NCBI RefSeq assembly: GCF_024343775.1
Contig: NZ_RJUF01000001.1
Coordinates: forward strand, 1-64,000
Direction of reading: 5' to 3'
Origin: Lacihabitans soyangensis
Lineage (GTDB): Bacteria > Bacteroidota > Bacteroidia > Cytophagales > Spirosomataceae
DNA: 64,000 bases
Below, piece after piece: positions 5,541 through 63,301 of this stretch. The notes under the pieces were generated by a model, which was not told where the DNA came from, ran no database searches, and saw only the letters and a program-made list of their open reading frames with translations. The number at the start of each line of letters is the position of its first letter. Positions within the stretch are counted from its first letter, which is position 1. The position numbers and the translations under genes were made by a program.

Positions 5541-7526
5541 ATGGAAAAATTCTATTTGAATTTCCGTTATCCATCCACAAGAATAATAACCTTAGTTTTA
5601 GGAATACTTTTCTTTTCGTTTTTTGATTCAAAAGCCGAGAGAAACGATTCTTTAAGTGCTATTTGTAAGCGTCCGACCTTTACTACCCGTCACAACGACG
5701 TTTCGTCACCCACTACTAGCGATGGACGACTGCTCATTACCACTATTGACTACGCCACACATTACGAAATTATCGAAGGCAATAATACGCCTTTTGACTT
5801 TGCCCAGTCTATTCCATTACCGCCACAACAGTTCGAAATCGAAATAAAAAACATTTCAAATCCAATCGGCAAAAAAATTTATAGAATTAGACTTTATAAC
5901 GAAGGCCCTGACTGTTACACCGACGAAGTTGTTACCTTCGAACACATGAATTTTGCTGTAGACAGGGATTTTGCAACAGTTGAACTCATTCAAGGTATCG
6001 ACAATTCTACTCCTAAAATTGGTGAATTAGTTACCTTTACAGCCATTGTTCAAAACAAAGGCACCAAAACTTCTGAGGATATCGAGGTGCGAGTAATCCA
6101 AAGCCTTAGCCTCGAAACCGTCAATTTTTATACAGAAAAAGGGCAGTTTACTTCGGTAGGTAATATTTGGAGAGTTGGAAAACTTACTGGTGGTCAGTCA
6201 GTTAAATTGGTTTTACGTCTAAAAGTAAAAGCCACAGGCTTGTCTTATATGTCATCCTTCATTTCACAAGAAGGTAATAAAATTCATGAGTATGTAGATG
6301 CTCAAGCTTCCGGGGTTACAGGAGCTAAACGTAGCGGTACCAGCTGTGTTACAGTTCCTATCGCCATAAATTCTGACGAGGTTTATAAGATGGTTTTGAA
6401 ACAATACAAAGACGTAAAATGGTACTACAAAGATGCATCTGGTAATTTTTCTGAGATAAATGATAAAACAAATCCCGCTTTAGCTGTTATCAATCCTGAC
6501 AGTTCACTCACTATCAAACAAGGGGGAGAATTTTCTTTCTCGAAAAAAGTTGGTGACTGTAACATCAGTAGTTGTTGCCCGGTTATTGTGGAGTCTTGTT
6601 CTGGTCCGCCCATTGTAGTCGACTCGGTTTATTGTAACACCACAGTCGATAGTTACAATATTGTTGTTCATCTCGAAAACGATAAATATAGCCTTATCGA
6701 GAAAGTGTTTTTTGCAATGTCAAATCTCAACTTTCCAGTTCTTACCAACTATCTAAGCCGAATTAACACCCTACCACTAACCTCTAGCTCGGGATTTGTT
6801 ACCTCTTTGGGCAACAGTTCTTACCGCATCGAAAACGTACCTGCATTTATGCCAAACGTAACTTTGGTTTCTAGCGATTTGACCGGAAAGTGTCGAAACG
6901 TTAGAATAGTAAACGCTCCAAACTGCACCAAACCTATAGGTATGCCAGTTTTGGATGAAACCGTACAGTTTGTAGATGCTGGTCAGATTCCACCTGCCTT
7001 TTTAGTGATAACCAAAGAGGCTGGCACTGAAATAGTTTGGTACGAGGACGAACTAGCACAGAAACCATTGCACACAGGTAAAAAATTCAGAGCTAAAACA
7101 CCTGGCACTTACTATGTGGCTTTTCGCGATAAAAAAACAAAGAGCGTAGGACCAACTGTTAAGGCCTATTTGAAAGAATTGGCTGCGGAAAAACCTGGTA
7201 AGTTTGGTGGTGAAGATGTTTGTGATTGTGACAACCCATTAATGGTTCCTCAGGGCGACTTAGGCGATTTAACCTCTGCCAAGGCCTATCCCAATCCAGT
7301 AAGTGATTTACTAACAGTTGATTATAGAATACCAAAAACTGCCGCCAAAGCTGCACTGAATTTCTCAAATGTGAACGGTAAACAAATGAAATTGATAGAG
7401 TTAGCTAAAAATACAAATTCTGTAAAAGTAGAAACCAACCGTTGGGCAGATGGCACATATTTTTATAGTCTCATAGTGGATGGTATCCGTACCTTCAGCC
7501 AAAAAATCATCGTTTCGCATCAGTAA
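5541..7526 (+). CDS. Secreted DUF11 protein with T9SS type A sorting domain
   Basis: 661 residues. The signal peptide is probably the stretch ending 'FFSFFDSKAE'. An N-terminal module (about 40-140, 'YRIRLYNEGPDCYTDEV') is followed by a DUF11-like domain (about 145-250, 'VQNKGTKTSEDIEVRV'). A Cys-rich unit ending 'SSCCPVIVESC' and a variable middle part come next. The last ~80 residues are a typical Por secretion system C-terminal domain ('AYPNPVSDLLTVDY' ... 'ADGTYFYSLIVDG'), which directs export by the type IX secretion system and usually surface attachment through A-LPS. Its first half mirrors the preceding gene (same order: module, DUF11, CCP unit), so it is a shorter paralogue that kept or gained the sorting tail. 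Function beyond the cell surface is unknown. Confidence 0.88.
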   Translation: MEKFYLNFRYPSTRIITLVLGILFFSFFDSKAERNDSLSAICKRPTFTTRHNDVSSPTTSDGRLLITTIDYATHYEIIEGNNTPFDFAQSIPLPPQQFEIEIKNISNPIGKKIYRIRLYNEGPDCYTDEVVTFEHMNFAVDRDFATVELIQGIDNSTPKIGELVTFTAIVQNKGTKTSEDIEVRVIQSLSLETVNFYTEKGQFTSVGNIWRVGKLTGGQSVKLVLRLKVKATGLSYMSSFISQEGNKIHEYVDAQASGVTGAKRSGTSCVTVPIAINSDEVYKMVLKQYKDVKWYYKDASGNFSEINDKTNPALAVINPDSSLTIKQGGEFSFSKKVGDCNISSCCPVIVESCSGPPIVVDSVYCNTTVDSYNIVVHLENDKYSLIEKVFFAMSNLNFPVLTNYLSRINTLPLTSSSGFVTSLGNSSYRIENVPAFMPNVTLVSSDLTGKCRNVRIVNAPNCTKPIGMPVLDETVQFVDAGQIPPAFLVITKEAGTEIVWYEDELAQKPLHTGKKFRAKTPGTYYVAFRDKKTKSVGPTVKAYLKELAAEKPGKFGGEDVCDCDNPLMVPQGDLGDLTSAKAYPNPVSDLLTVDYRIPKTAAKAALNFSNVNGKQMKLIELAKNTNSVKVETNRWADGTYFYSLIVDGIRTFSQKIIVSHQ

Positions 7527-58343: not shown

Positions 58344-58688
58344 TTATAGAAAGAATGTCTTTGTTTTGGATTTAGTTGCTACTTCTTCCACTTTGGTAGC
58401 GAGTACCTCAGTGATGTACACTTTGCGGTTTTCTTTGTTCAAATAATTGCGGGTTTGTAGTTTGCCCTCAATACTTATGAATTTTCCTTTGGCGATCAAT
58501 TCCTCGCATTGCTCAGCTACTTTGCCCCAGGCCACTATGTTGTGCCATTGTGTGTTGGTGATTTCTTCCTGGTTTTGGTTTTCGAAAGTTTCTTTGGTAG
58601 CTAAACTAAAGCTCGCTAATTTACTCCTTTCGAATGTTCTGATATTGGGATTGTTACCTACGTTTCCGATTAATTTTACTGTGTTCAT
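58344..58688 (-). CDS. ssb: Single-stranded DNA-binding protein, short
   Basis: 114 residues. OB-fold: 'VKLIGNVGNNPNIRTFE', 'ASFSLATKETFENQNQEE', 'TQWHNIVAWGKVAEQCEELI' and 'GKLQTRNYLNKENRKVYITE'. It ends 'KSKTKTFFL' with no acidic DDDIPF-type tip, so the normal docking site for repair proteins is missing. It probably lies in an operon with the similar gene 58743-59069. A housekeeping, full-length SSB is likely elsewhere. Confidence 0.93.
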   Translation of the reverse strand: MNTVKLIGNVGNNPNIRTFERSKLASFSLATKETFENQNQEEITNTQWHNIVAWGKVAEQCEELIAKGKFISIEGKLQTRNYLNKENRKVYITEVLATKVEEVATKSKTKTFFL

Positions 58689-58742: not shown

Positions 58743-59069
58743 TTACTTTTTTTCGTAAACGTATTCTTCCACCTTGAATGCCTGAATTTCAGTAACATAG
58801 ACTTTTTGATTTTGGCTGTTGGTATAGTTTCTGTAAACCAATTTGCCTTCCACACTTACTGATTTTCCTTTCGATATCAAGGCTTCGCACACATCGGCAA
58901 TTTTTCCCCAAGCAATTACATTATGCCAGGCCGTACTTTTAACTTCTTGGTTGTTTTTGTCTTTGTAACTGTCTGTGGTCGCCAGGCTGAAGCTCGCCTT
59001 TTTGCCTGTTTCAAATTTCATTACGTTCACCTCTGCACCTACATTTCCGATTAATTTTACTGAGTTCAT
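58743..59069 (-). CDS. ssb: Single-stranded DNA-binding protein, short paralogue
   Basis: 108 residues. Same OB-fold order as its neighbour: 'VKLIGNVGAEVNVMKFE', 'ASFSLATTDSYKDKNNQE', 'STAWHNVIAWGKIADVCEAL' and 'GKLVYRNYTNSQNQKVYVTE', ending 'KVEEYVYEKK'. Also lacks an acidic C-terminal tip. A recent tandem duplication is likely from motif-by-motif similarity. Confidence 0.93.
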   Translation of the reverse strand: MNSVKLIGNVGAEVNVMKFETGKKASFSLATTDSYKDKNNQEVKSTAWHNVIAWGKIADVCEALISKGKSVSVEGKLVYRNYTNSQNQKVYVTEIQAFKVEEYVYEKK

Positions 59070-60122: not shown

Positions 60123-60689
60123 ATGATTAATCTCGATTTCGATTTAAATTTAGAGTATCAACATTTCGATTTAGATATACAAATAGAGATCGCTTCACAT
60201 TTTCGTCCATTGGATTTTCAGAAAAACGAGTACATACTGGCCAAAGGTGAGGTTTGTACGGGTATTTATTACATAGAAACTGGTCTATGTCGGTCATTTC
60301 TGTGTAGTAATGGCAAAGAATATACGACTTCCTTTGGGCTTGATCAAAACATCATATGTTCACCTATTAGTTATTTGAAGCAAATGCCATCCGCAGAATC
60401 TATTCAGGCCATTGAAAAAACCTTCTGTTTCTATCTGTCTTACGAAAGTATACAATATCTTCTGGCCAAGCACTGTGTATTTAACGATTACGTACGGAGA
60501 CTATATGAAAAACTATTTATTGAGGCTGAAAATTTATTAAATAGTATCAGGGTAGATAGTGCTCTGCAACGATATGAAAAATTTATGGCAGAAACGCCTC
60601 ATCTTTTGAATCGGATTCCTTTGGGATATTTGGCCTCTTACTTGGGTATGAGCCAGGAAACGCTCAGCAGAATGCGTGGAAAAATATAA
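60123..60689 (+). CDS. Crp/Fnr family transcriptional regulator
   Basis: 188 residues. An N-terminal cyclic-nucleotide-binding-like barrel (about 20-115, 'NEYILAKGEVCTGIYYIETG') and a long dimer helix are followed by a compact wHTH. The recognition helix region is 'YLGMSQETLSRMRG'. The E-x-x-S-R spacing (E, S, R) is the same as that used by Fnr to read TTGAT. No Fnr-type four-Cys cluster is present, so the signal is not O2 through a 4Fe-4S. Its gene converges with the peptide gene 60742-61002. A TTGAT-N4-ATCAA box lies in front of that gene. Confidence 0.92.
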   Translation: MINLDFDLNLEYQHFDLDIQIEIASHFRPLDFQKNEYILAKGEVCTGIYYIETGLCRSFLCSNGKEYTTSFGLDQNIICSPISYLKQMPSAESIQAIEKTFCFYLSYESIQYLLAKHCVFNDYVRRLYEKLFIEAENLLNSIRVDSALQRYEKFMAETPHLLNRIPLGYLASYLGMSQETLSRMRGKI

Positions 60690-60718
60690 AGGGAACCCTC
60701 TTTGGAGAATTCCCTTTA
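60687..60718. terminator. Hairpin between crp/fnr-type gene and peptide gene
   Basis: TAAAGGGAA (60687-60695) pairs with TTCCCTTTA (60710-60718), with an inner CTC/GAG stem. The stop codon of the regulator lies in the left arm. No long U-tract, so it may be a weak bidirectional terminator. Confidence 0.6.
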
Positions 60719-60741
60719 CAATTAAGCTATTAAGCTAGGAA

Positions 60742-61002
60742 TTAACATCCCCAACCGAAAGAAAAGCTAAAGCTAATCTTTGGAGCACAATAAGTTGGCT
60801 TTGGAGCACAGTAATTGTTTGAATAACCGCCTGTGTTACAAGATACTGGAGGGGGAGTGTAACAAGGTTGTGGAGCTGGAGTGTAGCATGTTGTTTTTGG
60901 AGCACAGTAGCCTCCTAAGAGTGATAATAATCCGAATGTTCCTCCTTTAACTTCTTCTGTGTTTGAGATTTCCATTCCTGCAAATTTGTCTAATGATTTC
61001 AT
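60742..61002 (-). CDS. Cys-rich double-glycine-leader peptide (RiPP/bacteriocin-like precursor)
   Basis: 86 residues. Leader 'MKSLDKFAGMEISNTEEVKGG' (21 residues; key parts FAGMEIS and VKGG) matches the GG-leader type seen on Bacteroidota bacteriocin and peptide-pheromone precursors, which a C39-peptidase ABC exporter cleaves after GG. The 65-residue core holds seven Cys (33, 39, 47, 55, 65, 72, 86). It has three YCAPK/YCAPK-like and two CYTPxP repeats, a Gly/Asn turn, and ends in the alternating 'ISFSFSFGWGC'. A second GG at 30-31 is an alternative cut site. Pro/Thr/Tyr-rich core with Ser/Thr/Cys suits disulfides, thioethers or glycosylation. The neighbours (glycosyltransferase, unknown protein, regulators) suggest a modification cluster. 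Exporter not in the window. Confidence 0.8.
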   Translation of the reverse strand: MKSLDKFAGMEISNTEEVKGGTFGLLSLLGGYCAPKTTCYTPAPQPCYTPPPVSCNTGGYSNNYCAPKPTYCAPKISFSFSFGWGC

Positions 61003-61068
61003 TTTACCGGGTGTTTAAAGTTTAAGTTTATTTTCCTGTCCTCACAAAATTATTAAGCGAGTACATCA

Positions 61069-61099
61069 CAAATATAAAGTCTTAACTACCAAGTAACAA
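61069..61099 (-). promoter_or_regulatory. Promoter of the GG-leader peptide gene
   Basis: On the minus strand TTG (61099-61097), 20 bp, then TATATTTG (61076-61069), an exact TAnnTTTG -7 element. The predicted start is near 61062, giving a ~60-nt leader before the ATG at 61002. Confidence 0.7.
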
Positions 61100-61116
61100 T
61101 ATCGTTAAAACCGTTT

Positions 61117-61130
61117 TTGATTTTAATCAA
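61117..61130. promoter_or_regulatory. Fnr-like box TTGAT-N4-ATCAA
   Basis: Perfect TTGAT (61117-61121), four bases, ATCAA (61126-61130). Its centre is about 61.5 bp upstream of the predicted transcription start of the peptide gene, the class I activator position for Crp/Fnr proteins. The adjacent 60123-60689 regulator has matching recognition residues. Confidence 0.65.
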
Positions 61131-61220
61131 AATCATCTGGAAATGCATATAACGGTATGATTTTTGCAGTGATTAATATATCCTGCAATTATGTTCTTCT
61201 CAATTGGGAGTTTACCACTC

Positions 61221-61982
61221 TTATTTCGAATGGATTTTGGTAAGAATACTCAAAAGCGTTTCAGTAATTTTTGGAGCGAAAGTTCTTATTTCTAGTGCTT
61301 GGCATACACTTTCCTGGATATAATTGATTTCTTCAAGGGTTTCTGTTTCTTTGGTTAATTCTATCCAATTGATTACCCAAGGTTCAATGTTTTCCTCATT
61401 TTCGATATCTTGAAGCTCTTCAAAAAATACCATTAGGTCAGGATCAACTTCCTTCTGGATCGCTGAAGGGTTTGTAATTATTGCTGATGAAATAATTTTT
61501 GAAAAGTTTGCTCTTACCATTGCCAAAAATGCCAACTGTAAGGCGATATTTATCCGGTTTTTTTCTTCTATAAAGAAATCGTTGTAGTTCAATGCACCAA
61601 TAAGAACCGCAGACAGATTTTTTTGAAAACTTATCGCTTCTTTAACTGGATTAATCAGCTGTATATCAGAGTGGTTTGATATTTTGTCAATTTTAACAAG
61701 ACTGCCGCTTGGAAAATTTTCAAAAATTGGGTCTTGTGATTGTTTGCCATTAGGGTAGGGAAGGATTTCTATAAAGTCCGCTAGCTTCTTGATATCCTTT
61801 TCGGATATTTCCTCGGAAAATATACTCAGGTTATGGCCTCGATCGGTATCGAAGAAAAAAAAGAAATTATCTCCAAAGATATGCTCTTGAATAAAATTGA
61901 GCGTCATTTTCCAGTTGGATTTCTCTATGTAAACCTTTAGGCCTTGCAGATTTCCTTTTGTAAAAATACTCATATTATTCAA
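61221..61982 (-). CDS. Unknown protein of the peptide cluster
   Basis: 253 residues, mixed alpha/beta, no signal or membrane segment. The N-terminal region 'WKMTLNFIQEHIFGDNFFFF' and 'DTDRGHNLSIFSEE' recall, by eye only, the 'FIRYSDPGPHLRLRF' region of SpaB_C/thiopeptide-type dehydratase domains; the C-terminal part is helical ('INIALQLAFLAMVRANFSKI'). This resemblance is weak. It overlaps the glycosyltransferase gene by 8 bp, and the peptide gene follows 218 bp downstream. A role in handling or modifying the peptide is inferred from position. Confidence 0.7.
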   Translation of the reverse strand: MNNMSIFTKGNLQGLKVYIEKSNWKMTLNFIQEHIFGDNFFFFFDTDRGHNLSIFSEEISEKDIKKLADFIEILPYPNGKQSQDPIFENFPSGSLVKIDKISNHSDIQLINPVKEAISFQKNLSAVLIGALNYNDFFIEEKNRINIALQLAFLAMVRANFSKIISSAIITNPSAIQKEVDPDLMVFFEELQDIENEENIEPWVINWIELTKETETLEEINYIQESVCQALEIRTFAPKITETLLSILTKIHSK

Positions 61983-62946
61983 TCGTTATGGGGATCTTAT
62001 TTTCAAAGCCTTGATACACAGTTCCTTTTCCAAAGCCTATCTCTTGATTAGCCACAAGCTCTAGACTTTTAAGTTTTATTTCGGTATGTTTTTTATTTTT
62101 TATTTGAGAGTAAAAGTGAATCGTATCAATTTTGACTTTTTGGTTAGTAATTTCTTTATAATTCCCCATTTCTAAATCTTCTACAAATCCTTTTTTCTCT
62201 GTTCCAGTAAGCATATTATACCTTTTCCTCTGGTCAAGTGGTCTTACAAAACCACCACAGCTATGGGTATATTGGCTGTCTTCAATAAACACTGACTCAT
62301 AAGTAAGGTCCTGCAAACAAAAAATCAATCTACTAGTAAAAGGATTTATGGTCTCTACCAAAATCTTACTGAGGTTTTTAAACAAAAATTCGTTTTCTAT
62401 TCTTTCGAGCTCAGAATGAACTATAGCTTGTGCAAAGTCCGGGTTGTTAAAAGTCACTTTCTCTAAGCCCAATAATTCGAGTCTATTCTTGAGGTCAAAA
62501 TCCTCAAAACCATAAAGTTCTATCTTTTCGTCGTAACCACCGATGGCCAAAAAATCGGATTTAGTAAAACACAATTTGCCAAAAATATCACTTTGAAGTT
62601 CTTCGCTTGGCGATATATAAATATTTTTTTTAGTCAAAAACTTTTCTTGGATGTATGATGCAAAACCAATGCCGACGAAATTGTCTGCATCGAGATTACA
62701 AACGATATCTCCACTCGCGAGTTTAATGGCCATGTTTCTTGAATGGCTTCTTTTATAAAACTGTGGCTCGGTGGTTCGGTAATATTTAACCTTCCCACCA
62801 AAATGCTGTTGGTTCACATTTATCCAATCTAAAAGGCCGTCGGTGGAATTGTAATCCAATATGACAAATTCACTATCAGGCAAAGTCTTACAACAGTCCA
62901 GATTAAAGGGTAAAGTGGCTTTGACGTGATGAAGTCGGTTCATCAC
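61975..62946 (-). CDS. Glycosyltransferase, GT-A fold (family 2-like)
   Basis: 323 residues from the first canonical start (GTG 62946 / ATG 62943). GT-A features: 'FVILDYNSTDGLLDWI', 'KRSHSRNMAIKLASGDIVCN', the DxD motif 'NLDADNFVG', and 'GGYDEKIELYGFEDFDLKNR' (the [ED]xx[ED]D-type acceptor loop). The first strand, expected before 'NRLHHVKATLP', is encoded upstream in frame (KKPKISFCTTV) but without an ATG/GTG/TTG, so the true start is probably non-canonical, near 62979. Cytoplasmic; may glycosylate the Cys/Ser/Thr-rich peptide 60742-61002 or a glycan. Confidence 0.88.
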   Translation of the reverse strand: MMNRLHHVKATLPFNLDCCKTLPDSEFVILDYNSTDGLLDWINVNQQHFGGKVKYYRTTEPQFYKRSHSRNMAIKLASGDIVCNLDADNFVGIGFASYIQEKFLTKKNIYISPSEELQSDIFGKLCFTKSDFLAIGGYDEKIELYGFEDFDLKNRLELLGLEKVTFNNPDFAQAIVHSELERIENEFLFKNLSKILVETINPFTSRLIFCLQDLTYESVFIEDSQYTHSCGGFVRPLDQRKRYNMLTGTEKKGFVEDLEMGNYKEITNQKVKIDTIHFYSQIKNKKHTEIKLKSLELVANQEIGFGKGTVYQGFENKIPITIE

Positions 62947-63012
62947 GGTAGTACAGAAAGATATTTTAGGTTTTTTAATAATGCTTGTAACGTTAAAAAT
63001 ATCCTTTATCTG

Positions 63013-63270
63013 TTAGGCCGAAGTTTTGAGATCCGCTTTTTTTAGAAGATAAGTGTCGTATATAATATCTTCCAAGGGCACTTTAAAAAACTGGCTCACT
63101 TTCACTATATTTTTGATGGTGGGCGTTTTGAGGTCGCTTTCCCATTTCGAGTAGGTGGTTTGGGTTACATCCAACATGTAAGAAATCTCTTGCTGGGAGT
63201 ATCCAAAGTTCATCCTCAGGTTACGTAAATTTTTTCCGATGGCTATAGGTAGGTGTAATTCTAAGCTCAT
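63013..63270 (-). CDS. XRE-family HTH transcriptional regulator
   Basis: 85 residues from the ATG at 63270 (a GTG at 63279 is possible). A Cro/CI-type helix-turn-helix: 'LRNLRMNFGYSQQEISYMLD' and 'TQTTYSKWESDLKTPTIKNI'. No ligand domain. Its stop codon TAA (63015-63013) is followed, in the same frame, by the upstream part of the glycosyltransferase. GGTAGGTG(T/A)AATTC repeats around its start may be its operator. Confidence 0.9.
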   Translation of the reverse strand: MSLELHLPIAIGKNLRNLRMNFGYSQQEISYMLDVTQTTYSKWESDLKTPTIKNIVKVSQFFKVPLEDIIYDTYLLKKADLKTSA

Positions 63271-63301
63271 AATTTTCACTCACTAATGGTAGGTGAAATT
63301 C
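63248..63301. promoter_or_regulatory. Direct repeat GGTAGGTG(T/A)AATTC at the XRE gene start
   Basis: Copies at 63248-63261 and 63288-63301, 40 bp apart. A TTTCAC/GTGAAA inverted pair (63274-63279 and 63293-63298) overlaps the second one. They lie across the XRE start codon, so autoregulation is possible. Confidence 0.45.

Follow-up and report, generated by a model that had tools for sequence, protein, structure and literature searches.

Genetic organization of the locus

The stretch of DNA analyzed here, referred to as the window, comprises positions 1 to 64,000 (64,000 nucleotides) of contig NZ_RJUF01000001.1 of Lacihabitans soyangensis and carries a locus in which the gene for a Cys-rich peptide precursor lies on the same strand as, and downstream of, a glycosyltransferase (GT) gene and a gene for a 253-amino-acid protein. 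A first-pass annotation of this DNA had proposed such an arrangement, and the 86-residue open reading frame (ORF) with a GG leader, seven Cys and an SFSFSFGWGC C-terminus was found as described at 61002..60742 (minus strand), together with the 253-residue ORF, the GT, an XRE regulator and a convergent Crp/Fnr regulator, the last three of which match Pfam GT2, HTH_3 and cNMP_binding, respectively. The locus extends past 63279, its previously assumed end, since the exporter genes lie beyond the window edge. The three main features are as follows:

60742..61002, minus strand: precursor peptide of 86 amino acids, consisting of a 21-residue GG leader and a 65-residue Cys/Pro-rich core
61221..61982, minus strand: 253-amino-acid protein with a LanB-elimination-domain/TbtD fold predicted by modelling; likelier start at the ATG at 61973
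61975..62982, minus strand: GT2-type glycosyltransferase of the GT-A fold with NLDADN and YGFED motifs; 62982 is where the alignment begins, and the listed GTG is at 62946

The GT and 253-residue genes were said to overlap by 8 bp. The two genes do abut, but this overlap depends on a TTG start of the second gene; with the ATG that follows 9 bases later as the start, the genes are 1 nt apart.

The precursor family and its export

The precursor leader is MKSLDKFAGMEISNTEEVKGG, and the core, which begins after KGG, contains 7 Cys, 10 Pro, 7 Thr and 6 Ser. Leaders recognized by peptidase-containing ATP-binding cassette transporters (PCAT) end in GG and carry hydrophobic residues at positions -4 and -12; all seven aligned precursors present GG, V at -4 and M, L or F at -12. 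Clear homologues were recovered by a protein search of 119 relatives combined with a contig scan, in Lacihabitans sp. CCS-44 (L036), Arcicella aurantiaca (G059, L037), a Cytophagaceae metagenome-assembled genome (L038, whose genome is G597, with identical proteins) and a LEAD1 metagenome-assembled genome (L039). A profile search added G593 and G595, bringing the family to 7 of 222 family genomes, the own one included. The genome searches for the precursor, the GT and the 253-residue protein scored the best candidates per genome, so that counts may be lower bounds, and the phylum- and class-wide searches (395 genomes) sampled a larger group.

Homologous leaders are thus present in six other genomes, and the ORF is uninterrupted in all six. 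Substitution rates at non-synonymous (dN) and synonymous (dS) sites were low in ratio for four precursor pairs, namely the own precursor and its nearest homologue in L036 (dN 0.081, dS 0.908; dN/dS about 0.09), L052 and L053 (0.028 and 0.494; about 0.06), L037 and L038 (0.152 and 0.84; about 0.18), and own and L039 (0.333 and 1.399; about 0.24). The first 29 codons of the own and L036 genes differ by nine synonymous and no non-synonymous changes. Because of these homologues and the low ratios, the ORF is not a chance reading frame but a conserved and selected gene. No match to NCBIfam models was obtained for the precursor, the pinensin leader model included. An arthropod-defensin match (Pfam, E 0.16) was dismissed as chance, and of the 26 genomes that matched in the 119-relative search, the 22 with weak precursor matches (E 0.0056 to 0.1, many with internal stops) were left uncounted.

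The exporter expected for a GG-leader peptide, a C39 and HlyD pair, is present in the genome and adjoins the locus. The single C39-peptidase match of the genome (G000:C1:64409-64771) lies about 400 bp beyond the window, within the ORF of a 729-amino-acid PCAT (64391-66580 when the window numbering is continued) that comprises C39, ABC membrane and ATPase domains. HlyD (66584-68056) and TolC (68043-69458) ORFs follow it. A gldC-like gene (above the Pfam cut-off, below that of NCBIfam) separates the peptide-gene arm from the exporter arm. In five of the seven precursor loci, a PCAT gene stands no more than 2.2 kb from the precursor or the GT, and an excerpt of PMC7268733 describes GG leaders with C39 proteases in Bacteroidetes. 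Export of the Cys-Pro peptide by a C39 PCAT is well supported, with cleavage as a prediction.

Additional copies of the precursor accompany the exporter in several relatives. L036 and L039 carry a second, diverged precursor just upstream of PCAT, and in G593 and G595 a PCAT operon is found elsewhere in the genome, with three tandem GG-leader Cys-Pro ORFs ahead of it. In each genome a single ORF of the three matches the precursor profile, the others being recognized by their leader and core pattern. Two of the three tandem ORFs in each of these sets (L054 9305-10211, plus strand; L055 10353-11253, minus strand) have FGFN(L/F)SF at the core start. Just past the window, at about 64000-64300 of G000:C1 (L040 about 7000-7300), second-precursor remnants (KGGTF and SFSFSFG pieces with stops between them) stand where L036 and L039 carry the intact second copy.

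Both ends of the core are conserved (TFGLLSLL at the start, SFSFSFG at the end), with a Cys-x-Pro middle that varies in repeat number and length between species. This pattern, along with the tandem ORFs of G593 and G595, would suit a product that serves at the surface as a structural or adhesive peptide, not as a toxin or signal, and that is also compatible with glycosylation. We regard such a product as rather unlikely, considering that the layout of PCAT, tailoring pair and regulators is generally known as typical of bacteriocin clusters and of those for ribosomally synthesized and post-translationally modified peptides (RiPPs), and that presence in 7 of 222 family genomes fits a specialized product.

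The glycosyltransferase and its association with the 253-residue protein

The GT matches Pfam GT2 models, and NLDxDN and YGFED are kept in all seven aligned GTs, with the DXD motif intact. The listed GTG start (62946) would remove a conserved KISFCTT stretch, and the true start should lie upstream. No ATG, GTG or TTG precedes KISFCTT in the GT frame at 62946-63012 (minus strand) of the window; among relatives, L036 likewise has none (CTG or ATA possible), L038 has TTG and L039 has ATG. This suggests a rare start codon or a coupling to the XRE gene. An Acinetobacter oleivorans plasmid (L090 4962-5651, plus strand) also carries a short GT that starts with KISYCTT, beside an ORF resembling a UDP-sugar dehydrogenase; this match was rejected as a relative, covering half of the GT and sitting among plasmid genes with no 253-type gene seen.

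The comparison of neighbourhoods covered the seven precursor loci. The GT is followed directly by the 253-residue gene in six of them, with a gap of -8 to +4 nt, and this pair lies no more than 1.7 kb from the precursor in the same number of loci, which bears out the proposed association of GT and precursor. The distance between pair and precursor is 194 to 251 bases in five loci and 1,671 in L038, where a TolC gene stands between.

The GT clade was found in 7 of the 222 family genomes (E up to 1e-20) and, among the 395 class genomes, in the own genome and one more, G664 (E up to 1e-18). A 253-type or PF14028-type gene stands beside a GT in all eight genomes with the clade. The pair in G561 (L063) adjoins a pinensin-type precursor (NF038180), LanB-N, a PF14028 LanB-C and LanC; the 253-type protein there is a remote one, scoring 17.1 bits in hmmsearch, and follows the GT with order and strand unchanged. 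In G664 (L089), two PF14028-type genes lie between two GTs, with PCAT, HlyD, adenylation and condensation proteins nearby. One of these GTs is divergent from the adjoining PF14028-type gene, 57 bases apart, and the other is intact, about 2.5 kb off and not adjacent. The occurrence of pair relatives in three unlike peptide clusters makes a transferable tailoring module a testable idea. The signature of the pair, ISFCT in the GT (7/7) and FFFFFxx[D/E]RG in the protein encoded next to it downstream (6/7), offers a handle for genome mining. A 63-residue ORF with a lanthipeptide-like leader (by eye) and GG followed by a stop was also observed at L089 5258-5449 (minus strand), among adenylation/condensation genes resembling those of non-ribosomal peptide synthetases; this coreless leader is perhaps a scaffold peptide.

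Fold and possible role of the 253-residue protein

The first-pass annotation had called the 253-residue protein unknown; it models as the LanB-elimination/TbtD fold. A Pfam search with four rows gave no significant match (a single row matched, at E 0.2), a sequence search of the PDB gave one match, at E 1.2, and no solved relative, and a search of 395 genomes sampled from the phylum matched the own genome alone. An AlphaFold2 model from four sequences reached a predicted local distance difference test (pLDDT) score of 80.7 and a predicted template-modelling score (pTM) of 0.83. Among PDB structures, Foldseek ranked TbtD and PbtD, both pyridine synthases, and a [4+2] aza-cyclase ahead of MadB and NisB, with 5wa3 as the best match (E 4.8e-4, probability 1.00, template-modelling score 0.52).

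By itself the protein gives no PF14028 match. Two G664 proteins near the GT clade do match PF14028 (47.7 and 35.9 bits, cut-off 24.4) and act as a bridging pair. When the 253-residue family (seven rows, G561 included) was compared with this pair, 205 columns aligned with a score of 35.8 (P 2.8e-4), reached by none of 100 shuffles (maximum 19.3). A nine-row comparison (E 4.4e-7) was set aside because its query contained the bridging PF14028 members. Taken together, there is good model-based support for a LanB-elimination/TbtD fold, and the sequence link to PF14028, as seen in these profile comparisons, is supportive but short of conclusive.

The RxR and HxxxNR motifs are absent from all seven members of the 253-residue family and from both bridging proteins, whereas they are present in 22/22 and 21/22 ordinary PF14028 rows, respectively. 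The His of HxxxNR presumably corresponds to NisB H961. According to an excerpt of PMC4341554, NisB H961A performs no dehydration and R784A is only slightly impaired. Since the motifs are gone and H961A is non-dehydrating, a role of the 253-residue protein as an ordinary eliminase seems unlikely from its sequence. By analogy with TbtD, for which there is a structure of the complex with its leader peptide (5wa4), a peptide-binding role is plausible.

The same evidence bears on a scheme in which the GT sugar would activate Ser or Thr and the elimination-fold protein would then remove it, leaving dehydroamino acids that react with Cys to give lanthionine-like bridges without LanB-N and LanC. The modelled fold, the relative of the 253-residue protein beside a GT in 8/8 GT-bearing genomes, a core rich in Ser/Thr and Cys, and the lack of a LanC match in the own genome would all agree with it. 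Nevertheless, the motif loss in the family and the bridging proteins, read against NisB H961A, argues against elimination, even if the mild R784A effect means that RxR loss alone tells less (PMC4341554, excerpt). Additionally, the pinensin-type set of G561 possesses an ordinary LanB-C and LanC besides the pair, so the role of the pair there is probably another one. We consider this scheme very unlikely. In its broader form, the two genes would be a portable module in which a sugar serves as the leaving group for the dehydration of Ser/Thr, yielding thioether-bridged Cys-Pro peptides without LanB-N or LanC. This form is if anything more improbable still; if true, it would add an activation chemistry to glutamylation and phosphorylation.

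Relationship to known peptide systems

Glycocins (sublancin, glycocin F and thermoglycocin) resemble the locus in combining a Cys-rich leader precursor, a GT and a PCAT exporter, according to an excerpt of PMC12457901. The locus differs from them in that its GT falls below the cut-off of the SunS model TIGR04195 (14.4 bits, E 0.012, cut-off 350), its core is a Cys-x-Pro repeat and an elimination-fold partner is present; glycocin membership was rejected for lack of a SunS-type GT. The excerpts of PMC12457901 and PMC9576775 that deal with glycocins do not describe a pair of GT and elimination-fold protein.

Pinensin-type class I lanthipeptide clusters of Bacteroidota are alike in their PCAT/HlyD genes, and a pair relative lies beside such a set in G561. 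LanC (PF05147) gave no match in the own genome, the control matching in 1 of 14, and LanB-N (PF04738) gave none either, with the control genomes equally silent, although the model does match the L063 LanB-N. Membership in the lanthipeptides was rejected because LanC is missing from the own genome. The modelled fold is shared with stand-alone LanB elimination-domain homologues and with the pyridine synthases TbtD and PbtD; in contrast to these, the 253-residue protein is paired with a GT, is devoid of RxR and HxxxNR, and occurs in a genome without a LanC match. An excerpt of PMC7268733 reports stand-alone elimination-domain homologues, possibly with other chemistry, in class I lanthipeptide clusters.

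GT-bearing RiPP loci of Bacteroidales are similar as RiPP-like loci of Bacteroidota with a GT, and the excerpted text of PMC10352776 mentions GTs, radical SAM, LanC and other enzymes in such loci but no pair of GT and elimination-fold protein. The open-licence literature searched yielded no title on such a pair or on Lacihabitans bacteriocins. Bacteroidetocins are GG-leader peptides of Bacteroidota, unmodified apart from disulfides, and the own precursor resembles them, by description only, as a GG-leader peptide of the same phylum with predicted disulfides. The novelty is a new combination within a known kind, that of PCAT-exported peptides. For Cytophagales, the lineage of Lacihabitans and Arcicella within Bacteroidota, these results define a small family of Cys-Pro peptides that are exported, and they give an orphan protein a likely role, as an elimination-domain fold recruited as GT partner.

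Proposed pathway

It is somewhat probable that the locus makes a GG-leader Cys-Pro peptide that is glycosylated by the GT with the help of the elimination-fold partner, and trimmed and exported by PCAT. The 253-residue protein would bind the precursor and present it to the GT, which would put a sugar on a Cys, Thr or Ser of the core. The C39 domain would then cut after KGG, the transporter-HlyD-TolC channel would export the core, and the remaining Cys would pair as disulfides once outside. Control of the locus may lie with the Crp/Fnr and XRE proteins, and use of the product as a bacteriocin or signal is a guess. The view of the first-pass annotation that the product is a modified, secreted peptide is sustained by the homologous leaders, the intact ORFs and the GT association; we infer the glycosylation, the sugar, the residue that carries it and the disulfides.

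Several observations weigh against this pathway. The GT was modelled with medium quality (pLDDT 66.9), and the structural matches of the model are generic GT-A enzymes, the polypeptide GalNAc-transferases among them being suggestive only. The partner model superposes at a root-mean-square deviation of 8.0 with 10% identity in Foldseek. Compared with 22 ordinary PF14028 rows, the 253-residue family gave no significant result (reached by 4 of 100 column shuffles), and the six rows without the remote G561 member gave a borderline one with the bridging pair (score 21.0, P 0.05, reached by 1 of 100 shuffles). The adjoining GT of G664 reads YGSET for YGFED, and to judge from this substitution it may be inactive. 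If one Cys carried an S-linked sugar, the 7-Cys cores (5/7 precursors) would retain an even number of Cys, but this does not fit the 8-Cys cores (2/7). Finally, Arcicella aurantiaca has precursor, Crp/Fnr and exporter, with no GT or 253-residue homologue in its 20-kb locus and none reported in the genome searches for either protein.

The Arcicella locus and the generic GT fold would agree with a different reading, in which the substrate of the GT and the 253-residue protein is a different molecule, for instance a cell-surface glycan, and disulfides are the sole modification of the exported precursor. On the other hand, the pair stays within 1.7 kb of the precursor in 6/7 loci and its relatives are found together with PCAT genes in two further peptide clusters, and we hold this reading to be unlikely compared with the glycosylated peptide.

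Regulators and other features

The remaining features of the locus are as follows:

60123..60689, plus strand: Crp/Fnr-type regulator, convergent with the precursor gene (Pfam cNMP_binding)
60685..60720, minus strand: hairpin resembling a terminator, situated where the precursor and Crp/Fnr genes converge (a single one, against a shuffle average of 0.6)
61045..61076, minus strand: two TAnnTTTG matches (candidate motif), which precede the ATG of the precursor gene by 42 and 66 bases
63013..63279, minus strand: XRE-family regulator (Pfam HTH_3)

We take TAnnTTTG to be the -7-like motif of Bacteroidota. Matches to sigma-70 promoters near the precursor (3, against 2.2 in shuffles) showed no excess. 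The convergent Crp/Fnr homologue stands beside the precursor in all seven loci, and the XRE gene is found in only three, those of the own genus (own, L036 and L039). The Crp/Fnr gene of Lacihabitans CCS-44 consists of two ORFs (L036 10320-10885, minus strand), a pseudogene or a sequencing error. Two similar, adjoining ORFs at 58344-58688 and 58743-59069 of the window (minus strand), which resemble single-stranded-DNA-binding proteins, adjoin each other in L039 too.

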